11,224 nt of DNA from Oscillospiraceae bacterium (lineage in GTDB: Bacteria > Bacillota > Clostridia > Oscillospirales > Oscillospiraceae). Shown here in pieces: positions 1 through 11,224 of the stretch. The translations under genes and the position numbers were made by a program. Within the stretch, counting starts at the first letter, position 1, and each line of letters begins with the position of its first letter. The notes below the pieces were generated by a model. The model had not been told where the DNA came from. It did no database searches and saw only the letters and a list, made by a program, of their open reading frames with translations. Location: assembly GCA_017538775.1 (NCBI GenBank), contig JAFYIF010000093.1, positions 1-11,224 of the forward strand, read 5' to 3'.

Positions 1-525
1 GGGATAACGGCTCAGGGCCGCGCAGAGGGAGTGGACCGTGCGGCCATATTTCAGGTCGCCGCAGCAGCCCACGGTCAGGCCCCAGAAGCGGCCCTGTCTG
101 CGCCAGATGGTCAGCAGGTCCCCCAGGGTCTGGGTGGGGTGGTGGTGGCCGCCGTCCCCGGCGTTGATGACCGGGACCCCCGCCTTGCGGGAGGCCACCA
201 GCGGCGCGCCCTCCAGCGGGTGGCGCATGGCGATGATGTCCGCATACAGGCCAACGATCCGGGCCGTGTCCGCCACGCTCTCCCCTTTGGCGGCGGAGGA
301 ACTGTCCCCGCCCTCGATGCCCAGGACGCTGCCCCCCAGCTCCAGCATGGCCGCCTCGAAGCTCAGGCGCGTCCGGGTGCTGGGCTCGAAAAAGAGCGTG
401 GCCAGCTTCTTGCCGCGGCAGACTTCCGCGTAGTCCCCGGGGCGCTCCATGATGCGCTCCGCCGAGCCGATCAGGGTATAGAGTTCCTCCACGTCCAGGT
501 CCATGAAGTCGATCAGATGTCGCAT
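1..525 (-). CDS. pyrB: Aspartate carbamoyltransferase catalytic chain, 3' truncated by window edge
   Basis: Condenses carbamoyl phosphate with L-aspartate to carbamoyl-aspartate in the cytoplasm, the first committed pyrimidine step. Only the N-terminal 175 residues of an expected roughly 300 are present. They cover most of the carbamoyl-phosphate-binding domain: [13 protein letters not shown] at 45-57 (the STRTR phosphate loop), SSAAKGES at 76-83, MRHP at 100-103, [18 protein letters not shown] at 121-138 and [12 protein letters not shown] at 156-167. All are diagnostic for the family and none of the visible key residues is lost. The start ATG at 525 is preceded by a purine-rich GGGGGGAAG Shine-Dalgarno sequence, and the gene begins only 13 nt after the pyrE stop, so it is the last visible gene of the pyrimidine operon. 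Whether a regulatory chain gene (pyrI) follows cannot be seen. Confidence 0.96.
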
Positions 526-538
526 TTTGCTTCCCCCC

Positions 539-1177
539 TCATGCCGTCCGCCAGCCCGCGTCCTCCGGGCAGGCCCGGAAGCGCAGCAGACGCTTTACGT
601 CCTCCGGACGGATGTAGCCCTGGGCGGCGGCCAGCTCCGCCACGGTGTCAAAGTCCGTCAGGCTGTGGTTTTCCACTCCGGCGGCGGCCAGACGCTCCAG
701 GCCCTTTTGCATCCCGTAAGTGAAGATGCTCACCACTCCGAGCACCTCAGCCCCGGCTTCCCGGAGGATCTCCACCACTTCAATGACGCTTCCGCCGGTG
801 GAGATCAGGTCCTCCACCACCACAACTTTCTGACCGGGCAGCAGCCGCCCCTCGATCTGATTGCGCCGCCCGTGGTCCTTGGCCCCGGCGCGGACGTAGC
901 CCATGGGCAGGCCCATCAGGTGGGCGGTGATGGCCGCGTGGGCGATGCCCGCCGTGGAGGTGCCCATCAGCGCTTCCGCCGAGGGGTACCAGGTCTCGAT
1001 CAGCGTGCGCAGCCCTTGCTCCACGTCCGTCCGCACCGCCGGGTCGGACAGGGTCAGGCGGTTGTCGCAGTAGACCGGGCTCTGGATGCCGCTGGCCCAG
1101 GTGAAGGGTTCCTCCGGGCGGAAAAACACGGCCCGGATCTGCAGCAGGTGCGCTGCAATGCGTTTGTTCAACTCCAT
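539..1177 (-). CDS. pyrE: Orotate phosphoribosyltransferase
   Basis: Transfers the ribose 5-phosphate of PRPP to orotate to give OMP, the fifth step of UMP synthesis. The 212-residue product has the usual family length. Visible landmarks are [17 protein letters not shown] near 24-40, the catalytic-loop region [14 protein letters not shown] at 97-110 (Lys100, His102) and the PRPP-binding motif [13 protein letters not shown] at 118-130. The N-terminal pattern resembles the Bacillus/Clostridium type of PyrE rather than the enterobacterial one. The ATG at 1177 follows AGGGGAGAG at good spacing and lies 22 nt downstream of the pyrF stop; pyrB begins 13 nt after its own stop. The enzyme works directly before PyrF, whose gene is immediately upstream in the operon. 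Family assignment is firm. Confidence 0.97.
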
Positions 1178-1199
1178 CTTCTCTCTCCCCTGCTTTCAA

Positions 1200-1907
1200 T
1201 CATGCATCGACGAATTCCGTCAGGCAGCGCCGCCAGGCCTCCACCGGGTCGGCGGCGGCGGTGATGGGTCTGCCCACCACGATGTAGTCGCTGCCCAGCT
1301 CCCGCGCCCGGGCGGGGCTGGTGACGCGGCGCTGGTCGTCTGCGGCGCTGCCGGCGAAGCGGACGCCGGGGGTGACGGCCAGAAAGTCCGCCCCGCAGCG
1401 CTTGTGGATCATGCCCGCCTCCAGCGGGGAGCATACCACCCCGTCCAGCCCGGCCAGGCTGGCGTTCTCCGCGTAGTGGGCGATGACCTCCTCCATCTCC
1501 TCCCGGATCCAGAGGTCCCGCTCCAGGTGGAGGCTGTCCGTGCTGGTGAGCAGCGTCACGGCCAGCAGCAAAGGCCGCGTGCCGTCGGGCCGCGTCAGGC
1601 CCTCCAGCGCCGCCTCCATCATCGGGATGGTCCCCGCCGCGTGGAGGTTGCAGATGTCCGCCCCCAGCCCGGACAGCACCCGCATGGCGGCGCGCACGGT
1701 GTTGGGGATGTCGTGCAGCTTCAGGTCCAGGAAGATGCGGTAATCCCGGTCTTTCAGCTCCCGCACGATGTCCGGCCCGGCGCTGTAAAAGAGCTCCATG
1801 CCGATTTTCAGGAAAGGCTTGCGCGCCTCCCCGTCAAAGCGTTTCAAAAAGTCCAGCACCTGCTCCCGTCCGGGAAAATCGCAGGCGATGATCACGTCCT
1901 TACCCAT
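1200..1907 (-). CDS. pyrF: Orotidine 5'-phosphate decarboxylase
   Basis: Decarboxylates OMP to UMP, the last step of de novo pyrimidine synthesis. The 235-residue single-domain TIM-barrel protein has normal length. Its signature is FLDLKLHDIPNT at 59-70, containing the catalytic Asp61-Lys63-Asp66 array, with substrate-binding Lys34 in FLKIGMELF, VTPGVRF in the middle and the phosphate-binding VVGRPIT at 210-216. The ATG at 1907 overlaps the end of pyrD by 8 nt (positions 1900-1907), and its AGGAGG Shine-Dalgarno is formed by the last codons of pyrD, so translation is probably coupled. The short form next to pyrD and pyrE is the bacterial group 1 enzyme, not the long mycobacterial type. Confidence 0.97.
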   Translation of the reverse strand: MGKDVIIACDFPGREQVLDFLKRFDGEARKPFLKIGMELFYSAGPDIVRELKDRDYRIFLDLKLHDIPNTVRAAMRVLSGLGADICNLHAAGTIPMMEAALEGLTRPDGTRPLLLAVTLLTSTDSLHLERDLWIREEMEEVIAHYAENASLAGLDGVVCSPLEAGMIHKRCGADFLAVTPGVRFAGSAADDQRRVTSPARARELGSDYIVVGRPITAAADPVEAWRRCLTEFVDA

Positions 1908-2817
1908 GTGCGCCTCCTATGATCTCTCTCAGGCTTTCGATTCCATATCGTTCCATGGCCTCCGGCAGGGCCGCCACGATGTCCCGGCAGGCGAAGGGGT
2001 CCACCAGATTGGCCGCCCCCACCTGCACCGCCGTGGCCCCGGCCAGCAGCATTTCCAGCACGTCCTCGGCGCTGGAGACGCCGCCCATGCCCACCACCGG
2101 GAGGTCCACGGCCTGGCTGACCTGCCAGACCATCCGCAGGGCCAGGGGGAAGACGCCGGGGCCGCTCATGCCCCCGGTGCCGTTGGCCAGGATGGGCCGG
2201 CGGCGGCGCAGGTCGATGCGCATCCCCAGCAGGGTGTTGATCAGGCTCAGGCCGTCGGCTCCCGCGTCCGCGCAGGCCCGGGCGATGGACACGATGTCCG
2301 TCACATTGGGGCTGAGCTTCACCAGCACCGGCTTGTCCGTCACGGCGCGCACCGCCGCCGTCACTGCGGCGGCCTGGCGCGGGTCGGTGCCGAAGCTCAT
2401 GCCCCCGCCGTGGACGTTGGGACAGGAGATGTTCACCTCCAGCCAGCCCACCTGGGGACAGGGGGCCAGGCGTTCCGCCACGGCTCGGTATTCCTCAATG
2501 GAAAAGCCGCTGATGTTTGCCAGAATCGGCTTGCGGAAGACTTTGGAGAGCTTGGGCAGCTCCTCGGTCACCACCGCCTCCACGCCGGGGTTTTGCAGGC
2601 CGACGGCGTTCAGCATCCCCCCGGCGTACTCCGCGATGCGGGGCGTGGGGTTGCCGAAGCGGGGGTGGAGCGTCGTGCCCTTGCAGGAGAAGCTGCCCAG
2701 GCAGTTGATGTCGTAGAGCTCCGCGAATTCATAGCCGTAGCCGAAGCAGCCGCTGGCGGGGATCACCGGGTTGTCCAGCTCCACGCCGCAGAGCGTCACG
2801 CGCAGATCCCTTACCAT
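1900..2817 (-). CDS. pyrD: Dihydroorotate dehydrogenase, class 1B catalytic subunit
   Basis: Oxidises dihydroorotate to orotate with bound FMN. The 305-residue product matches class 1 cytoplasmic enzymes. Landmarks are NPVIPASGCFGYG at 16-28, Lys46 in SCKGTT, the substrate loop NAVGLQNPGVE at 70-80 and VNISCPNVHGG at 128-138. In that last motif Cys132 is the expected catalytic base; class 2 membrane enzymes have Ser there. The C-terminal FMN-phosphate region GMGGVSSAEDVLEMLLAGATAVQVG is also present. The pyrK gene directly upstream identifies subclass 1B, which passes electrons through PyrK to NAD+. The ATG at 2817 overlaps the pyrK stop by 7 nt and follows AAGGAGGAA. No membrane segment is visible. 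Confidence 0.96.
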   Translation of the reverse strand: MVRDLRVTLCGVELDNPVIPASGCFGYGYEFAELYDINCLGSFSCKGTTLHPRFGNPTPRIAEYAGGMLNAVGLQNPGVEAVVTEELPKLSKVFRKPILANISGFSIEEYRAVAERLAPCPQVGWLEVNISCPNVHGGGMSFGTDPRQAAAVTAAVRAVTDKPVLVKLSPNVTDIVSIARACADAGADGLSLINTLLGMRIDLRRRRPILANGTGGMSGPGVFPLALRMVWQVSQAVDLPVVGMGGVSSAEDVLEMLLAGATAVQVGAANLVDPFACRDIVAALPEAMERYGIESLREIIGGAHG

Positions 2818-3545
2818 GGCAGTTCCTCCTTGTCCAGCACCGGCCCCTCCCGGCAGAGGCGTTTGGGTCCATTCCGGGTCTGGCAGCTGCAGCCCATGCA
2901 GGCCCCGAAGCCGCAGCCCATGCGCTCCTCCAGGCTGAACTGCCCGCCGGTGGCGCAGCGCTCGTACACCGCCCGGAGCATGGGCTCCGGCCCGCAGGCG
3001 CAGACGTGGCTGTAGTCTCCGGCCCGGTCCATGCCGTCGGTCACCAGGCCCCTAAGACCCAGGGAGCCGTCCGCCGTGCAGACCGTCACAGGGACCCCCA
3101 GGGCGGCGAAGTCCTCAAGCAAAATCGCCTCGGATGCCGTGTTGAAGCCCAGCACGGCCAGGGGCTTGCTCCCCTGCCCGACCAGGCGTTTTGCCAGGCC
3201 GTAAAGGGGCGGGACCCCCACGCCGCCGCCCAGCAGCAGGGGGCGCGGGCCGCACTTGCTCAGGTCGTAGCCGTTTCCAAGGCCCGTCAGGACATCCAGC
3301 TTCGTGCCCACCGGACAGCCGCGCAGGGCGGCGGTGCCTTTGCCCTGAACTTTATAGATCAGGCGCAGCGTCCCCTCCCCCCAGTCGCAGACGGAGATGG
3401 GGCGGCGCAGATAGAAGCCCGGAATCCGGAGGTCCACGAACTGGCCCGGCGCGGTGACGGCGGACGTGTCCCCCGCCAGACGCAGCTCGTAAATGTCCCG
3501 GGCGATCCGGCGGTTGGACCGGATCTCAAACAATACCTGCTGCAT
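2811..3545 (-). CDS. pyrK: Dihydroorotate dehydrogenase electron transfer subunit (FAD, [2Fe-2S])
   Basis: Partner of PyrD in the NAD-dependent heterotetrameric dihydroorotate dehydrogenase; it carries electrons from FMN through an iron-sulfur cluster and FAD to NAD+. The 244 residues are close to the usual 250 or so. The N-terminal ferredoxin-reductase-type FAD domain has PGQFVDLR and RRPISVCDW. The central nucleotide-binding domain has PLLLGGGVGVPPLYGLAKRL, and CACGPEPMLRAV lies further on. The C-terminal cluster ligands are Cys211, Cys216, Cys219 and Cys231 (C-x4-C-x2-C-x11-C). The ATG at 3545 lies inside the end of carB, giving a 20-nt overlap; the Shine-Dalgarno is only a modest GGAAG. 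The frame shift relative to carB and the intact domains argue that the overlap is genuine. Confidence 0.95.
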   Translation of the reverse strand: MQQVLFEIRSNRRIARDIYELRLAGDTSAVTAPGQFVDLRIPGFYLRRPISVCDWGEGTLRLIYKVQGKGTAALRGCPVGTKLDVLTGLGNGYDLSKCGPRPLLLGGGVGVPPLYGLAKRLVGQGSKPLAVLGFNTASEAILLEDFAALGVPVTVCTADGSLGLRGLVTDGMDRAGDYSHVCACGPEPMLRAVYERCATGGQFSLEERMGCGFGACMGCSCQTRNGPKRLCREGPVLDKEELPW

Positions 3546-6500
3546 GGTCTTCCGTAGGGAACGCCGTCCCCGGCGTTCCGCCCATGTCGATGGTGCTGAT
3601 GGGCAGGGTCATGTCCTCCAGCACGTCCAGGACGATGCGCACGGTGTCCAGGTTGGTGAACATCGTGACGCCGTTTTCCACCGCGCAGCGGCGGATGGCC
3701 TCGCCGTCGTGGAAGTGGGTGCCGGAGGTGATGGTGCGGGTGTTCACCACATAGCTGACATAGCCCGCCCGGATGGACTCCAAAATCTCCTGGCTGCCCT
3801 CGCTGAGCTTGCCCCGGACCCGGGTGCGGATGCCGTGTTCCTTGAGGAAGGCCGCCGTGCCCGCCGTGGCCTCGATGTTGAAGCCCATGTCGTAGAAGCG
3901 GCGGACCAGGGGCAGGGCCTCGGCCTTGTCCTCCGTGGCAATGGTCACCAGCACGGTGCCGTAACTCTTGAGCTTCATCCCGGCGGCCTGGAGGCTCTTG
4001 AACATGGCCCGGTAGAGCTTGTCGTCATAGCCGATGGCCTCGCCGGTGCTCTTCATCTCCGGGCTGAGATAGGCGTCCAGGCCCCGGATCTTGGCGAAGG
4101 AGAAGACCGGGGTCTTCACATACCAGCGCTTTTTCTCCTCCGGGTAGAGGGAGAAGATGCCCTGCTCTTTCAGGCTCCGGCCCAGAATCACCTCCGTGGC
4201 GATGTCGGCCAGAGACCAGCCGGTGGCCTTGCTCAGGAAGGGCACGGTGCGGCTGGAGCGGGGATTCACTTCGATGATGTAGACCTTGTCCTGCTTGTCC
4301 ACGATGAACTGGATATTATACAATCCCTTGATGCCCACGCCCAGGCCCAGCTTTTTCGCGTAGGTCAGGATGGTGCCCTTCACTTTGTCGGAGATGGAGA
4401 AGGCGGGATAGACGCTGATGGAGTCGCCGGAGTGGACGCCGGTGCGCTCTACCAGTTCCATGATACCCGGCACGAACACGTCCTGTCCGTCGCAGATGGC
4501 GTCCACCTCCACCTCGCGGCCGGCGATGTATTTGTCCACCAGCACGGGCTTGTCCTCGTCGATCTCCACGGCGGTCTTGAGATAGCGCCGCAGCATGGCC
4601 TCGTCCGCCACGATCTCCATGGCCCGGCCGCCCAGCACGAAGGAGGGGCGCACCAGCACGGGGTAGCCGATCTCCTCCGCGGCCCGGACGCCGTCCTCGA
4701 TGTGGGTGACGGCGGTGCCCTTCGGCTGGGGGATGCCCAGGCGCAGCAGCAGCTTTTCAAACTGGTCCCGGTCCTCCGCCCGGTCGATGGCCTCCACGTC
4801 GGTGCCGATGATCTGCACGCCCCGCTCCATCAAAGGCCGTGCCAGGTTGATGGCAGTCTGTCCGCCCAGAGAGGCGATGACGCCCTCGGGCTGCTCGTAG
4901 TCCAGAATCGCCATGACATCCTCCGGCGTCAGCGGCTCGAAGTAGAGCTTGTCCGCCGTGGTGTAGTCGGTGGAGACGGTCTCCGGGTTGTTGTTGATGA
5001 TGATGGACTCATAGCCCGCCCGGCGGATGGTCTGCACCGCGTGGACGGTGGAGTAGTCGAACTCCACGCCCTGGCCGATGCGGATGGGACCCGCGCCCAG
5101 GACCACGATCTTCTTTTTGTCGGTCAGGCGGCTCTCGTTTTTCAGCTCCGGGTCCAGCAGATGCAGGTAGGTGGAGTAGAGATAGGCGATGTATTTCCCG
5201 GTGTGCAGGGTGTCCACCATGCGGAACACCGGGGTCAGGCCCGCGGCCTTGCGCTGGCGGTAGACCTCCAGCTCCTCCCGCTCCCAAAGCTTTGCAATGA
5301 ACTTGTCGGAAAAGCCCATGGTCTTGGCGGCCAGCAGCGCCCGCTCGTCCCCCGGGCGGCTTTGCAAAATGCGCTCCATCTCCACGATGTCGGACAGGCA
5401 GTTCAGGAAGAGCTCCGTGATCATCGTGACCCGGTGCAGCTCCTCCACCGTGTGGTCCCGGCGCAGAAGCTCCGTCACGGCGAAGATGCCGTCGTCCCGG
5501 TACTCGTTCAGGTAGTCCAGAATGGCCGCGTCGGACATGGCGTCAAACTTGGGGCTGTAGAGGTGACAGACCCCGGTCTCCAGGCTGCGGACGGATTTCA
5601 GGAAGCACTCGGCCAGGGTGCCGCCGATGCCCATGACCTCGCCGGTGGCCTTCATCTGGGTGCCCAGGGTGTTGGGGGCACCGGCAAATTTGTCGAAGGG
5701 GAAGCGGGGGAATTTCGCCACGATGTAGTCCAGAGACGGCTCCATGGCCGCGTTGCCCCCCGCCACGGGGATCTCGTCCAGGGTCATGCCCACGGCCACC
5801 TTGGCCGTCACCCTGGCGATGGGGTAGCCGCTGGCCTTGCTGGCCAGGGCGGAGGAGCGGGAGACCCGGGGGTTCACTTCGATCAGATAATATTCGCTGC
5901 TGGTCGGGTTCAGGGCGAACTGCACGTTGCAACCGCCGCAGACCCCCAGGGCGCGGATCAGTTTCAGCGCCGCGCTGTTCAGCATGTCCAGGTCCTCCGG
6001 GCTGAGGCTCAGGATCGGGGCCACCACCACGCTGTCGCCGGTGTGGACGCCCACCGGGTCCACGTTCTCCATGCCGCAGACCGTGATGGCCCGGTCGGTG
6101 CCGTCCCGCATGACCTCAAATTCGATCTCCTTGTAGCCCTTGACGCTCTTCTCCACCAGCACCTGGTGGACCGGGGAGAGGGCGAAGCCGTGCATCGCCA
6201 CCTCTTCCAGCTCCGTCTCGTCGTTGGCGAAGCCGCCGCCGGTGCCGCCCAGGGTGAAGGCCGGGCGCAGCACCACCGGATAGCCGATGCGCGCCGCCGC
6301 CGCCTTCGCCTCCTCCACGGAGTAGGTGATCTCGCTGGGGATGACCGGCTCGCCGATGCGCTGGCACAGCTCCTTGAACTGCTCCCGGTCCTCCGCCATT
6401 TCGATGCTGGCCGAGGGGGTGCCCAGCAGCTCCACCCGGCACTCGTTCAGGACGCCGTTCTTCTCCAGCGCCATGGCCAGGTTCAGGCCCGTCTGGCCGC

Positions 6501-6768
6501 CCAGGCCGGGGATGATGGCGTCCGGGCGCTCCCGCCGCAGAATGCGGGCCACGTATTCCAGGGTCAGAGGCTCCATATAGACCTTGTCGGCGATGGCGGT
6601 GTCGGTCATGATGGTGGCGGGGTTGGAGTTCACCAGCACCACCTCATAGCCCTCCTCCTTCAGCGCCAGGCAGGCCTGGGTGCCCGCGTAGTCGAACTCC
6701 GCCGCCTGTCCGATGACGATGGGGCCGGAGCCGATGATCAGAATTTTCTTGAGATCCGTCCGTTTCAT
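3526..6768 (-). CDS. carB: Carbamoyl-phosphate synthase large subunit
   Basis: Makes carbamoyl phosphate from bicarbonate, ammonia and two ATP. The 1080 residues cover the full family length. The first ATP-grasp half starts with KILIIGSGPIVIGQAAEFDY and includes NSNPATIMTD. An oligomerisation region follows at about 400-550. The second ATP-grasp half starts near 555 with VVLGAGPIRIGQGVEFDYS and NNNPETVSTD. A C-terminal MGS-like allosteric domain begins at about 936 (TAGTAAFL, VVNTRTITSG, IRRCA). The ATG at 6768 was chosen because it directly precedes the conserved MKRTDLKKILIIGSG start, follows GGAGGG, and overlaps the pyrC stop as ATGA; a longer in-frame start at 6840 would lie within pyrC. 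The glutaminase partner carA, often next to carB, is not in the window. CarB alone can use free ammonia in known systems, so either an unlinked carA or ammonia supply is needed. Confidence 0.97.
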   Translation of the reverse strand: MKRTDLKKILIIGSGPIVIGQAAEFDYAGTQACLALKEEGYEVVLVNSNPATIMTDTAIADKVYMEPLTLEYVARILRRERPDAIIPGLGGQTGLNLAMALEKNGVLNECRVELLGTPSASIEMAEDREQFKELCQRIGEPVIPSEITYSVEEAKAAAARIGYPVVLRPAFTLGGTGGGFANDETELEEVAMHGFALSPVHQVLVEKSVKGYKEIEFEVMRDGTDRAITVCGMENVDPVGVHTGDSVVVAPILSLSPEDLDMLNSAALKLIRALGVCGGCNVQFALNPTSSEYYLIEVNPRVSRSSALASKASGYPIARVTAKVAVGMTLDEIPVAGGNAAMEPSLDYIVAKFPRFPFDKFAGAPNTLGTQMKATGEVMGIGGTLAECFLKSVRSLETGVCHLYSPKFDAMSDAAILDYLNEYRDDGIFAVTELLRRDHTVEELHRVTMITELFLNCLSDIVEMERILQSRPGDERALLAAKTMGFSDKFIAKLWEREELEVYRQRKAAGLTPVFRMVDTLHTGKYIAYLYSTYLHLLDPELKNESRLTDKKKIVVLGAGPIRIGQGVEFDYSTVHAVQTIRRAGYESIIINNNPETVSTDYTTADKLYFEPLTPEDVMAILDYEQPEGVIASLGGQTAINLARPLMERGVQIIGTDVEAIDRAEDRDQFEKLLLRLGIPQPKGTAVTHIEDGVRAAEEIGYPVLVRPSFVLGGRAMEIVADEAMLRRYLKTAVEIDEDKPVLVDKYIAGREVEVDAICDGQDVFVPGIMELVERTGVHSGDSISVYPAFSISDKVKGTILTYAKKLGLGVGIKGLYNIQFIVDKQDKVYIIEVNPRSSRTVPFLSKATGWSLADIATEVILGRSLKEQGIFSLYPEEKKRWYVKTPVFSFAKIRGLDAYLSPEMKSTGEAIGYDDKLYRAMFKSLQAAGMKLKSYGTVLVTIATEDKAEALPLVRRFYDMGFNIEATAGTAAFLKEHGIRTRVRGKLSEGSQEILESIRAGYVSYVVNTRTITSGTHFHDGEAIRRCAVENGVTMFTNLDTVRIVLDVLEDMTLPISTIDMGGTPGTAFPTEDHAAGIV

Positions 6769-8063
6769 TGCACGCCCTCCATAGTATCCGTAGTATCCCG
6801 CACGATGCTCCCGTCGTCCCAGACGACGGCCCCGCCGCACACGGTCATGCGGCAGCGCCCGGCGACGCGCCAGCCCGCGAAGGGCGTGGCCCGCCCCCGG
6901 CTCAGGAATTCCGCCGGGTCAATGTCGTATTCCGCCTCCAGGTCCCAGACGGAGAAGTCCGCCGGGGCCCCCGCCTCCAGGGGACTGCCCAGCCCGAACA
7001 GGGTCTGCGCCCTGCCACAGAGAAGTTCCACCAGCCGCGCCAGGCTGATGTGGCCGGGCCGGACCAGGTGGGTGTAGAGCAGCGGAAAGGCGATCTCCAG
7101 GCCCACCACGCCCATGGCGCTTTTCTCCAGGCCCCGGCTTTTTTCCTCCGCGCTGTGGGGCGCGTGGTCCGTGGCCACCAGGTCGACGGTCCCGTCCCGC
7201 AGCCCCTCCAGCAGCGCCGCCCGGTCCTCCGGGCTCCGGAGCGGGGGGTTCATCTTAAAGCGCCCGTCCTCCTGCAGGGCCGTCTCGTCCAGCAGCAGAT
7301 AGTGGGGCGCGGTCTCACAGCTCACGGGCAGGCCCTCGGCCTTGGCACGGCGGATTAGCTCCACGCTCTCCTTGGTGGAGATGTGGCAGACGTGGTAGGC
7401 GCAGCCGGTCTCCCGCACCAGCTGGAGGTCCCGGGCGATGGGGCCCCACTCGCTCTCAGAGCAGATGCCCCGGTGTCCGTGGGACAGGGCGTAGGCCCCG
7501 TCATGGATGTAGCCGCCGCGGAGCAGGGCGTTGTCCTCGCAGTGGGCGGCAATGCGCTTGCCCAGGCGTTTGGCCTCCCGCATGGCCGAGTACATCATCT
7601 CCTGACTCTGGACCCCCTTGCCGTCGTCGGAAAAGCCCGCCACAAAGGGCGCCATGGCCGCCATGTCCGACAGCTCCAGGCCGAACTCCCCTTTTGTGAT
7701 CGCCCCGTAGGGGACGCAGCGGATCACGCTGTCCCGGCGTATGATTGAAAGCTGGGCTTCCAGATGCGCCGCGCTGTCCGGCACGGGTTTCAGGTTCGGC
7801 ATCGGGCAGACCGTGGTATAGCCCCCCCGGGCCGCGGCGCGGGAGGAGGCGGCCACCGTGTCTTTATACGAAAAACCCGGCTCACGGAAATGCACATGCA
7901 CGTCCGTGAAGCCGGGAAAAACGGTGAGGCCGTGAAGATCCAGGGTGGGGAGTTTGCGCCCCGTTTCGGAGACAAGTCTGCCGTCGGAAATGCGCAGATC
8001 CCGACGGACCGCCCGTCCGTCGTTGGCGTCGTATACCGCTGCGCCGCGCAGGACTGCTTCCAT
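6765..8063 (-). CDS. pyrC: Dihydroorotase, type I
   Basis: Cyclises carbamoyl-aspartate to dihydroorotate. The 432-residue amidohydrolase is of the Bacillus type. Metal and catalytic residues are visible at spacings matching my recollection of the Bacillus enzyme: His56 and His58 in DVHVHFREPG, Asp147 in FSDDGKG, His174 in AAHCEDN, His227 in VCHIST and Asp299 in VATDHAPHS. The ATG at 8063 was preferred over an in-frame ATG at 8108 for two reasons. It has a GGAGAGGAT Shine-Dalgarno, and the predicted promoter (-10 at 8099-8104) would start transcription downstream of 8108. It is the first gene of the operon and its stop overlaps carB by 4 nt. A catalytically dead dihydroorotase-like protein is excluded by the intact ligands. 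Confidence 0.96.
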   Translation of the reverse strand: MEAVLRGAAVYDANDGRAVRRDLRISDGRLVSETGRKLPTLDLHGLTVFPGFTDVHVHFREPGFSYKDTVAASSRAAARGGYTTVCPMPNLKPVPDSAAHLEAQLSIIRRDSVIRCVPYGAITKGEFGLELSDMAAMAPFVAGFSDDGKGVQSQEMMYSAMREAKRLGKRIAAHCEDNALLRGGYIHDGAYALSHGHRGICSESEWGPIARDLQLVRETGCAYHVCHISTKESVELIRRAKAEGLPVSCETAPHYLLLDETALQEDGRFKMNPPLRSPEDRAALLEGLRDGTVDLVATDHAPHSAEEKSRGLEKSAMGVVGLEIAFPLLYTHLVRPGHISLARLVELLCGRAQTLFGLGSPLEAGAPADFSVWDLEAEYDIDPAEFLSRGRATPFAGWRVAGRCRMTVCGGAVVWDDGSIVRDTTDTMEGVQ

Positions 8064-8090
8064 ATCCTCTCCGCTCCCTTCCAACTCAAA

Positions 8091-8151
8091 TTTTTGCAAG
8101 AATAACACAGCAAAGGGGAGAAATCAAGCGCAGTCCCCGGCTTTTTTGCAA
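8091..8151. repeat. Pair of direct TTTTTGCAA repeats around the pyrC promoter
   Basis: The 9-bp sequence TTTTTGCAA (TTGCAAAAA on the pyrC coding strand) occurs at 8091-8099, across the predicted pyrC start site, and at 8143-8151, upstream of the -35. The copies are 52 bp apart, about five helical turns, so they lie on the same DNA face. This would suit a dimeric or looping regulator, but the regulator is unknown and chance recurrence of an A/T run with GCAA is possible. Confidence 0.35.
8099..8127 (-). promoter_or_regulatory. Predicted pyrC operon promoter
   Basis: Read on the minus strand: a -35 of TTGATT (8127-8122), a 17-nt spacer, and a -10 of TATTCT (8104-8099) preceded by TG one base upstream, that is, an extended -10. 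Each hexamer matches the sigma-A consensus at 4 of 6 positions. Transcription would begin in the A run at about 8093-8091, giving a leader of about 29 nt. That is too short for a PyrR-type antiterminator/terminator, and no such structure is seen. If the first base is 8092 the RNA starts AAUUUG. Prediction only. Confidence 0.6.
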
Positions 8152-8311: not shown

Positions 8312-8337
8312 CACGCAGTCGAAGCCGGGAGGTGTGC

Positions 8338-8829
8338 ATGAAAAAAGTCGGAATCGTCATGGGCAGCACCAGCGATCTGCCAGTCGTGGAAAAGGCCCTT
8401 GCCGTATTGCAGGAATACGGCGTCCCAATCGAAGTGCGCGTTTTGTCCGCTCACCGTTGTCCCGAAGAGGCAGCAGCGTTTGCCCGTTCGGCGCGGGAGA
8501 GCGGTTTTTCTGTTTTGATCGCCGCCGCCGGCATGGCGGCGCACCTGGCCGGGGCCCTGGCCGCCAACTGCAGCCTGCCGGTCATCGGCATCCCCTGTAA
8601 GGGCGCGGTGCTGGAGGGCATGGACGCCCTGCTCAGCACCGTGATGATGCCCCCCGGTGTGCCGGTGGCCACCGTGGGCGTGGACGGCGCGAAAAACGCC
8701 GCGCTGCTGGCCGTGGAGATCCTGGCCCTCTCGGATGAGAGCCTGGCCGCCAAGCTGGAGGCCGCCCGGGCTGCCAACCGCGCCGCCGTGCTGGAGGCCG
8801 ACGCCGCGCTGCAGGCGAAGTATTGCTGA
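8338..8829 (+). CDS. purE: N5-carboxyaminoimidazole ribonucleotide mutase (PurE, class I-like)
   Basis: Makes CAIR, the substrate of PurC. The 163 residues match the small PurE family. Visible motifs are [12 protein letters not shown] at 9-20, the catalytic SAHRCPEEA at 37-45 with His39, [15 protein letters not shown], and [31 protein letters not shown]. These resemble the class I bacterial mutase more than class II AIR carboxylases. Class I enzymes normally need PurK, and no purK is in the window; it may be elsewhere. The ATG at 8338 was chosen over an in-frame GTG at 8332 because GGGAGG (8328-8333) is well spaced for the ATG and would overlap the GTG. It is the first gene of the purine operon, 48 nt before purC. 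It could alternatively carboxylate AIR directly; the sequence alone does not decide. Confidence 0.94.
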
Positions 8830-8853
8830 GTGGCGCTGACACAACGTATTTTT

Positions 8854-8870
8854 TTCCATCCTGGAAGGAG
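8854..8870 (+). promoter_or_regulatory. Hairpin abutting the purC ribosome-binding site
   Basis: TTCCA (8854-8858) and TGGAA (8862-8866) can form a 5-bp stem with a TCC loop, followed directly by GGAG (8867-8870), the purC Shine-Dalgarno. Nearly the same string, CCATCC(C)TGGAAGGAGA, precedes purM. The preceding T run is not behind a stable GC stem, so this is not a terminator. Confidence 0.35.
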
Positions 8871-8877
8871 AGATATT

Positions 8878-9558
8878 ATGGAACTCGTTTACACCGGAAA
8901 GACCAAGAACGTCTACAAACTGGACAACGGCCACTATCTGCTGAAGTTCAAGGACGACTGCACCGGCAAGGACGGCGTCTTTGACCCGGGTGAGAACTCC
9001 ATCGGCCTGACCATCGAGGGCGTGGGCGACGTGAACCTGCGCATGAGCATCTATTTCTTTGAAAAGATCAACGCCGCCGGTATCCCCACCCACTACGTCT
9101 CCGCAAACCTGGCCGACACCACCATGGAGGTGCTGCCCGCCCGGGTCTTCGGCCACGGGCTGGAGGTCATCTGCCGCCACAAGGCGGTAGGCAGCTTCCT
9201 GCGCCGCTACGGGGAGTATATCGAAGAGGGCGCGGACCTGCCCGCCTATGTGGAGATGACCTTCAAGAACGACGAGAAGGGCGATCCCCTGGTCACGAAG
9301 GACGGCCTCATCGTCCTGGGCATCATGAGCGGCGAGCAGTACGACGCCATTCGCACCCAGACCCAGCGCATCACCCAGATCGTGGCCGACGACCTGGCGG
9401 AGAAGGGCCTGACCCTCTATGACATCAAGTTTGAATACGGCTACGATGAGAAGGGCGACGTGATGCTCATCGACGAGATCGCCAGCGGCAACATGCGGGT
9501 CTACAAGGACGGCCAGTACATTGACCCGATGACCCTCAGCGCGCTGTTCTTTGCGTAA
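8878..9558 (+). CDS. purC: SAICAR synthetase, divergent short variant
   Basis: Ligates CAIR and aspartate with ATP to give SAICAR. The 226-residue product is slightly short for the family (about 235-240). It has the N-terminal ATP-site GKTKNVY at 7-13, LLKFKDD, GIPTHYV, a conserved-region variant [20 protein letters not shown] and [12 protein letters not shown]. The usual DEISPD-x-CR-x-W signature is replaced by [11 protein letters not shown] at 199-209, and the protein ends shortly after, lacking the usual C-terminal helix. I recall similar variants in gut Clostridia, so it is probably a functional subfamily, but that is from memory. The ATG at 8878 follows GGAAGGAG; a GTG at 8830 would add unrelated residues. 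Its TAA overlaps the purF ATG by one base. Confidence 0.93.
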
Positions 9559-10982
9559 TGGGCGGCTTTTTCGGCGCGGTTGGCCGCCAGGATGTGGTGC
9601 TGGACGTGTTCTTCGGCACGGACTACCACTCCCACCTGGGCACCCGCAGCGCGGGCATGGCCATCTGGGACGCGGAATGCGGCTGCCGCCGCCAGATCCA
9701 CAACATCGGCAACACCCCCTTCCGCACAAAATTTGAAAACGACCTGCGGGACTTCCATGGCAACTGCGGCATCGGCTGCATCAGCGACAGCGACCCCCAG
9801 CCGCTGCTGGTGCGCTCCCACCTGGGGCTTTACGCCATCGCTACCGTGGGGCTCATCGGGAACGCGGAGGAGCTGGTCCAGAAGTATTTCTCCGACCACG
9901 GGCACCAGTTCATGGCCATGAGTTCCGGTCGGGTGAACACCACGGAGCTGGCCGCCGCCCTCATCAACGAGAAGGAGAGCCTGGTGGACGGCATCCGCCA
10001 CGCCCAGAGCCAGATCGACGGCAGCCTCACCGTTTTGCTGATGACCGGCAAGGGGGAGATCATCGCCGCCCGGGACCGCTACGGGCGTCTGCCCGTGTTG
10101 GTGGGCGAGAAGGAGGACGGCTACTGCGTCTCCTTTGAGTCCTTCGCTTTCCAGAAGCTGGGCTACCACAAATGCCGGGAGCTGGGGCCGGGCGAGATCG
10201 TCCGCATCACCCCCCAGGGCTGCGAGACCCTGGCCCTGCCGGGGCGCGAGATGAAGATCTGCGCCTTCCTCTGGACCTATTACGGCTATCCCAACTCCAA
10301 CTACGAGGGCGTCAACGTGGAGGTCATGCGCTACCGCAACGGGCGCAGCATGGCCCGGGCGGAGATGGCCGACGGGACGCTGCCCCAGGTGGACTCCGTG
10401 GCCGGAGTCCCGGACAGCGGCGTGCCCCACGCCATCGGTTACGCCGCCGAGAGCGGGCTGCCCTTCGCCCGGCCCTTCGTCAAATACACCCCCACCTGGC
10501 CCCGCTCCTTCATGCCCACCGACCAGAAGGTGCGCGATCAGGTGGCAAAGATGAAGCAGATCCCGGTCCCGGAGCTGATCGAAGGGCGGAAGCTGCTCTT
10601 CGTGGACGACAGCATCGTCCGCGGCACCCAGCTGTGCGAGACCATCGACTTTCTCTATGAGTCCGGCGCGGAGGAAGTGCACATGCGCTCGGCCTGCCCG
10701 CCCATCATGTACGCCTGCAAATACCTGAACTTCTCCCGCTCCAACTCCGACCGGGACCTGCTGGCCCGGCGCATCATCCGCAAGCTGGAGGGCCAGGCGG
10801 GGGAAGCCCACATCGAAGAGTACGCCGACGGGAAGACCGAACGGGGCCAGTGCCTCCTGCGCACGATCTGCGAGGACATGGGCTTCAGCTCCCTGCGCTA
10901 TCAGAGCCTGGACGAGCTGCTGGACGCCATCGGCATCGACCGGGAGAAGATCTGCACCTACTGCTGGACCGGCAAGGAGTGA
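9558..10982 (+). CDS. purF: Amidophosphoribosyltransferase-like protein lacking the glutaminase active site
   Basis: PurF family: makes phosphoribosylamine from PRPP, the first purine step. The 474 residues show an N-terminal class II glutamine-amidotransferase-like fold and a C-terminal phosphoribosyltransferase domain with the PRPP loop [12 protein letters not shown] at 346-357 and [13 protein letters not shown]. Four cysteines at the positions that bind the [4Fe-4S] cluster in Bacillus PurF are kept (Cys235, Cys387, Cys466, Cys469). The glutaminase site is gone. The start is MGGFFG instead of MCG-type, so the nucleophilic Cys is Gly2. The GH-x-RYST motif is replaced by GCISDSD at 73-79, the HNGN oxyanion motif by TVGLIGN at 96-102, and the SDTE aspartate apparently by Asn127. 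Activity with free ammonia is plausible; a regulatory pseudo-enzyme is the alternative. The start codon overlaps the purC stop (TAATG) and has no Shine-Dalgarno, so translation is coupled to purC. Confidence 0.9.
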
Positions 10983-11017: not shown

Positions 11018-11224
11018 ATGGAATCCCATTCTGCATCCTACGCCGCCGCCGGCGTGGACATCGAGGCCGGGTACAAGGGCGTGAAGCTCATGCGCGGCCA
11101 TGTGGAGCGTACGTTCATCCCCGGCGTCCTGGGCGGGCTGGGCGGCTTCGGCGGGCTGTTCGCCCCCGACCTGCGCGGTATGGCCGAGCCGGTGCTGGTC
11201 TCCGGCACCGACGGCGTGGGCACC
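11018..11224 (+). CDS. purM: Phosphoribosylformylglycinamidine cyclo-ligase (AIR synthetase), 3' truncated by window edge
   Basis: Closes the imidazole ring of FGAM with ATP to give AIR, the substrate used by the PurE step. Only 69 of an expected roughly 340 residues are present, yet they are diagnostic: [19 protein letters not shown] at 6-24, the glycine-rich [12 protein letters not shown] at 37-48 and the nucleotide-binding-loop start VSGTDGVGT at 61-69. The ATG at 11018 follows AAGGAG at 10-nt spacing, 35 nt after the purF stop. The order purE-purC-purF-purM is a common Clostridia/Bacillus-like arrangement, and further pur genes probably follow beyond the edge. Confidence 0.95.

Follow-up and report, generated by a model that had tools for sequence, protein, structure and literature searches.

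The window, by which we mean the whole 11,224-nucleotide stretch analysed here, carries on its forward strand the beginning of a purine operon in which an unusual PurF, hereafter the variant, follows a purC-like gene and precedes purM, within which the contig ends (Table 1). The ATG of the variant (9558-9560) shares one base with the purC stop codon in a TAATG overlap, and the protein begins MGGFFG. Judged by its score below the family cut-off, the PurC of this operon is a divergent form too; we note that the purC-like product is short (242 residues). Positions 1-8108 hold, on the minus strand, pyrB-, pyrE-, pyrF-, pyrD-, pyrK-, carB- and pyrC-like genes, which were identified by eye from their translations and point away from the purine operon.

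Table 1. Features of the purine operon in the window and of the PurF variant it encodes.
Feature	Position	Strand	Basis
purE, GTG start	8332..8829	+	TIGR01162, 187.1 bits vs cut-off 149.6
purC-like gene	8830..9558	+	TIGR00081, 118.9 bits, below cut-off 189.9
PurF variant, 474 residues, without glutaminase active site	9558..10982	+	
Residues 1-230 of variant: degenerate Ntn (ex-glutaminase) domain	9558..10247	+	
Gly2, in place of catalytic Cys1	9561..9563	+	Alignment of 149 variants and 30 canonicals
DYHSHLGT, residues 22-29, variant signature including Leu27	9621..9644	+	(Nearly) invariant in 149 variants
Ile75-Ser76, junction at the missing 8-residue glutamine loop	9780..9785	+	Gap in 149/149 variants; loop in 30/30 canonicals
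T-V-G-L, residues 96-99, at the oxyanion HNGN position	9843..9854	+	Alignment
Asn127-Thr128; Thr128 in the column of the conserved Asp	9936..9941	+	Alignment
Residues 231-474 of variant: phosphoribosyltransferase domain	10248..10979	+	
Flexible PRPP loop, variant form, residues 309-318	10482..10511	+	Alignment; pLDDT
Kept PRPP loop	10605..10628	+	Alignment
Span with four iron-sulfur Cys codons	10260..10964	+	Cys235 10260-10262, Cys387 10716-10718, Cys466 10953-10955, Cys469 10962-10964
purM, start only, contig end inside gene	11018..11224	+	tblastn with purM reference

The earlier note on this DNA had proposed that Gly replaces the nucleophilic Cys of the glutaminase domain, and had named a sequencing error at the ATG or a hidden Cys-Gly start as ways in which this could be wrong. 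Neither is the case: no in-frame ATG, GTG or TTG lies upstream of 9558 before the stop codon at 9522-9524, and 149 relatives are concordant with the start.

These relatives were aligned with canonical PurFs of the window's order, namely the 30 that score best. The 149 variants comprise 69 complete proteins from that order (the window protein included; the truncated copies L132-L134 were excluded) and 80 from named genomes, the latter being the best 80 of at least 595 stretches found when species genomes were scanned for two signature peptides. The Cys1 column holds Gly in 140 variants and Ser in the other nine, and Cys in all 30 canonicals, each of which starts Cys-Gly, so that 140 variants have no Ntn nucleophile; the loss read from the MGGFFG start thus holds family-wide. 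It extends to the glutamine loop, the Arg of the QHRGQ motif and the oxyanion Asn, which we take to be functional elements of PurF at these positions. The Arg is Leu in 149/149 variants (Leu27 in the window protein), and the first oxyanion Asn is Val, Ile or Thr in 149/149, the His-Asn-Gly-Asn motif reading Thr-Val-Gly-Leu in the window protein, in keeping with the oxyanion loss first noticed there. The HTRYST segment had been read as replaced by GCISDSD; the substitution stands, and there is in addition a deletion, with eight glutamine-loop columns missing from every variant and present in every canonical. Brown et al. (2011; PMC3261824) name a Cys-His-Asp triad for the glutaminase site. The conserved Asp of the SDTE motif is another residue in 147 of the variants and Asp in two. 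It had been matched to Asn127, which proved to be its neighbour: Asn127 is invariant among the 149 variants and precedes the Asp column, in which the window protein has Thr128. The window protein has therefore lost all four of glutamine loop, QHRGQ Arg, oxyanion Asn and catalytic Asp.

The synthase half is preserved. The window protein has the two-domain fold of PurF end to end, and the variant shares this fold, the PRPP loop and the iron-sulfur cysteines with canonical PurF (TIGR01134; B. subtilis 1ao0/1gph, E. coli 1ecb/1ecf). The motifs DDSIVRGT (with Val for Ile353 in a few proteins) and PDSG are retained, Cys235 and Cys387 are found in 149/149 variants and Cys466 and Cys469 in 148, with one gap, and the loop and the four cysteines match those of the aligned canonicals. 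Their retention had been recorded from the window alone; that account did not extend to the flexible PRPP loop, which is altered, reading KYTPTW.RSF in variants versus K-N-(R/K)-Y-(I/V).RTF in canonicals. In the window protein, pLDDT falls below 50 at residues 312-317 of this loop. The variant further differs from canonical PurF in carrying about 27 extra residues at 410-436 and in lacking a C-terminal extension. The TIGR01134 score of the window protein, 185.6 bits, is about half the cut-off of 350, and by this score and the lost glutaminase residues the name glutamine PRPP amidotransferase is not appropriate for the variant.

The family is large. The scan for the two signature peptides gave at least 595 genome stretches, and 595 out of 595 encode relatives; the best 80 include records from Ruminococcaceae, Flavonifractor, Agathobaculum, Frisingicoccus, Evtepia, Adlercreutzia, Thermophilibacter, Olsenella and Collinsella. 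Proteins beginning MGGFFG do exist in other gut Clostridia, as the earlier note had it, and also in the order of Adlercreutzia, which we take to be GTDB Coriobacteriales. Among the matches listed, the four of 120 relatives that have a source name are labelled amidophosphoribosyltransferase. A quick tree was made from 98 rows (69 variants from the window's order, 17 of the 80 named variants and 12 of the 30 canonicals); in it a very long branch, with roughly five changes per column either side of the root and thus effectively saturated, separates all the variants from the canonicals. We estimated dN/dS over 25 close pairs, of which 22 and 21 were usable and many had saturated dS; the medians were 0.036 for residues 1-230 and 0.025 for residues 231-474. 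Mean pairwise identities of the two halves were 0.60 and 0.64 among variants (600 sampled pairs) and 0.64 and 0.66 among the 30 canonicals. By these measures both domains are under strong purifying selection and, since dN/dS is low and the identities of the halves are near those of the canonicals, the ex-glutaminase domain is not decaying. A sequencing error or a decaying pseudogene was rejected on the agreement of the 149 relatives and the low dN/dS. The absence of Cys from all 149 relatives, their position beyond the long branch and the low dN/dS strongly support the suggestion that this is a stable PurF subfamily and not a recent mutation.

To establish which genomes rely on the variant, we surveyed 147 genomes of the window's order, calling it at more than 350 bits with a variant query that gives no canonical PurF more than 175 bits, and calling canonical PurF above the TIGR01134 cut-off. 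The variant was found in 72 genomes and canonical PurF in 99: 35 have both, 37 the variant only, 64 the canonical only and 11 neither, one of the latter (G004, 55% complete) having a partial canonical PurF of 273 bits. In each variant-only genome the variant query matched just once at E <= 1e-20, with no fragment of a second PurF seen at that threshold. Incomplete assemblies were rejected as the source of this class, as 4.0 absences of canonical PurF (sd 1.9) would be expected among the 72 carriers and 37 were observed, a sum that treats related genomes as independent. On the protein tree the variant-only/both label requires 15 changes, and the state has therefore switched many times.

Later pathway genes are kept in most of these genomes. 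PurM exceeds its cut-off in 34/37 variant-only, 62/64 canonical-only and 34/35 'both' genomes and in 2/11 genomes with neither PurF; conversely, 34 of the 36 purM-positive genomes without canonical PurF carry the variant. Fisher tests alongside these counts gave p values of 2e-10 and 6e-6, with genomes treated as independent though they are related. The three variant-only exceptions are the window genome, G087 (match below the cut-off) and G020. PurL was dropped as a second pathway marker because it is uninformative, being found also in 6 of the 11 genomes with neither PurF; 29 of its occurrences in variant-only genomes are, by our reading, full length in one piece. Two genomes stand apart: G020 (98% complete) has a stand-alone variant at locus L091 and neither purM nor PurL, both of which its genus-mate G144 has, and G021 (95% complete) lacks both the variant and canonical PurF while having purM and PurL, which leaves a gap at the first purine step. 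The window genome itself is a draft (94% complete, 360 contigs); a count of purM matches at E <= 1e-20 gave none, its contig ending within purM, and the search for a second, canonical PurF advised earlier found none over the TIGR01134 cut-off. Its other TIGR01134 match is a 372-base piece of 43 bits on contig C178. Read by eye, this contig opens with an ammonium transporter.

Beyond the order, 28 of 398 genomes in a phylum sample at least 90% complete carry the variant, and three of these (G000, G497 and G549) have no canonical PurF; when the five carriers of the window's order are set aside, 21 of 23 also have the canonical enzyme. Similarly, 49 of 120 genomes in the order of Adlercreutzia are carriers, 43 of them with canonical PurF as well; in the remaining six it was absent at E <= 1e-70, in genomes whose completeness is not given. 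As canonical PurF accompanies it in most of these carriers, the variant may play a different part outside the window's order. Of 16 named genomes picked from among the best 80 of at least 595, five have no PurF over the cut-off, and purM is present in 5/5. Two of these five are isolates, Evtepia gabavorous KLE1738 and Adlercreutzia equolifaciens DFI.6.87.

The neighbourhood of the variant is that of PurF. At least one of purE, purC, purM or purN lies on the same strand in 29/37 variant-only loci, 19/32 intact 'both' loci and 66/80 named loci (the best 80 of at least 595), and the usual order is purE-purC-variant-purM-purN-AICAR formyltransferase-purD. In 28 of the 29 operonic variant-only loci the variant directly precedes purM. 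Of the 13 operon loci scanned, 11 (L065, L066, L069, L070, L071, L075, L077, L078, L081, L084 and L201) have a ZMP/ZTP riboswitch, which senses a purine intermediate, starting 122-179 bases upstream of the purE match; it was found in none of 20 stand-alone loci nor in L100, and an Rfam scan of the window found no riboswitch. Stand-alone copies occur in 8/37 variant-only and 13/32 'both' loci. In the six loci looked at, their neighbours are unrelated genes (ten proteins, one of them without a match) and include SfsA, a P-type ATPase, LigT, a penicillin-binding protein, a GDSL lipase and an ABC transporter. The AICAR formyltransferase of the operon is of the PRK07106 type (663.6 bits at L078:14083-15264), which is stand-alone and not a bifunctional PurH, and IMP cyclohydrolase must therefore come from elsewhere. 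We note that variant operons combine three unusual purine enzymes, namely PurC, PurF and the formyltransferase.

In textbooks, purine synthesis begins with PurF and its use of glutamine. A relative that has lost the glutaminase site, conserves the synthase motifs, occupies the PurF slot of operons and is the only PurF of many genomes very probably does PurF's job. Our best reading is that it can replace PurF as an ammonia-dependent enzyme, and we infer the use of ammonia from the sequence comparisons above: the variant is likely to be a PRPP aminotransferase that performs the first purine step with ammonia instead of glutamine. The phosphoribosyltransferase domain would make phosphoribosylamine from PRPP and NH3, and the ex-glutaminase domain would persist as a scaffold, with the loss of the glutamine loop opening the old pocket to solvent as an entry port for cytosolic ammonia, a plausible route in the ammonia-rich gut. 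Many gut bacteria with such a dismantled PurF, often as the sole copy, would then probably start purine synthesis from free ammonia, and those that also have canonical PurF may have a choice of nitrogen source.

There is precedent for the chemistry. PMC3261824, citing Mei and Zalkin, states that replacing Cys1 of E. coli PurF abolishes the use of glutamine and leaves the use of ammonia, as the earlier note had it; the variant would resemble an evolved end state of such an enzyme. Phosphoribosylamine arises non-enzymatically from ribose 5-phosphate and ammonia (PMC3485032), and ammonia is therefore chemically capable of the step. The altered flexible PRPP loop, on the other hand, counts against an ammonia-dependent PRPP aminotransferase, and the retention of the variant by G020 without purM or PurL counts against an ammonia-fed PurF. 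The two variants that have Asp in the catalytic column weigh on the same side, as do the draft state of the window genome, its zero count for purM and the lack of a riboswitch in the window.

The strong conservation of DYHSHLGT and ISD..PQP in the ex-glutaminase domain looks like more than that of a scaffold and counts against this part of the reading. It is possible, and we suggest it only tentatively, that the domain has been rebuilt as an ammonium-uptake port that feeds an internal channel and is paired with the rewritten PRPP loop KYTPTW.RSF. The glutamine lid would have been deleted, and DYHSHLGT, ISD..PQP and N127 would capture and deprotonate ammonium. If so, evolution itself would have turned a glutamine amidotransferase into an enzyme that runs on ammonia, and would have done so at the committed purine step and in much of the gut microbiota.

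Delivery of ammonia by a partner is unlikely. The variant would still make phosphoribosylamine for purines, with ammonia coming from a glutaminase that forms a separate subunit or from a different glutamine amidotransferase of the cell, for example PurL or a canonical PurF in a mixed oligomer. PurL is indeed present in 36/37 variant-only genomes, and canonical PurF adjoins the variant in 8/32 intact 'both' loci and 6/80 named loci (the best 80 of at least 595); a mixed oligomer with canonical PurF is nevertheless impossible in the 37 variant-only genomes. The variant-only operons, moreover, seldom have room for a partner gene beside the variant, as gaps on both sides of the variant are short: 3-121 bases from the purC match in 22/22 loci, and 7-67 bases to the purM match in 26 of 28, with 311 and 314 in the other two.

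We consider it quite improbable that the ex-glutaminase domain has acquired a new function as an active or binding site, for a non-glutamine amide or for uptake and deprotonation of ammonium, built from D22, Y23, H24, H26, S76, D77 and N127. These residues are (nearly) invariant in the 149 variants and, except for His26, differ from the canonical ones, and selection on the Ntn domain is nearly as strong as on the phosphoribosyltransferase domain; conservation alone, however, may mean packing at a domain interface. Least probable is a regulatory or structural pseudoenzyme, or one of another pathway, with purines made by canonical PurF: the canonical enzyme of most carriers outside the window's order, the stand-alone copies beside unrelated genes and G020 speak for it, and the purM of 34/37 variant-only genomes, the conserved PRPP loop and iron-sulfur cysteines and the place of the variant in the PurF slot of the operon speak against it. 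The regulatory option raised earlier accordingly does not suit the 37 variant-only genomes and is conceivable where canonical PurF is also present.

An ammonia-fed PurF has been proposed before. Brown et al. (2011; PMC3261824) describe PurF' of Crenarchaeota, a Cys-less PurF homologue near purine genes, whose dependence on ammonia they put forward as a hypothesis needing experiment, and report both PurF and PurF' in each Crenarchaeon studied. Compared by description, PurF' and the bacterial variant both have no N-terminal Cys and both occur near purine genes; PurF' is in that account always accompanied by a Cys-bearing PurF, whereas the variant stands alone in 37/72 carriers of the window's order. 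What is new relative to PurF' is thus a bacterial family that follows the same logic and stands alone in many genomes. Human carbamoyl phosphate synthetase I (CPS1), with an inactive glutaminase domain (Cys to Ser) and ammonia taken from its surroundings (PMC4655335), is alike in its working, but as a different enzyme of a different pathway it offers an analogy only. In the titles and abstract openings of the open-licence PMC literature we recognised no description of a bacterial Cys-less PurF family, which is weak evidence of absence, and we found no test of the 2011 proposal in the same literature.

Gut Clostridia and the order of Adlercreutzia harbour a large PurF family that is without the residues on which the textbook mechanism depends and is often the sole PurF, a status that makes the ammonia idea testable and, if the idea is true, would provide a clean test of the archaeal proposal. 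Should free ammonia be the substrate, gut ammonia would feed purine synthesis directly, glutamine analogues such as DON should not affect this step in these species, and metabolic models charging one glutamine for the PurF step would be wrong for them.

Variant-type PurF proteins are presumably present in Bacteroides, and Bacteroides ihuae, a control genome that matches TIGR01134 below the cut-off, may have a Cys-less variant. In the order of Adlercreutzia, canonical PurF matches of G589, G599, G607, G615, G619, G631 and others, and of G160:C152, come in two pieces within one open frame. The break, close to profile position 187, is suggestive of inserted sequence between the domains.
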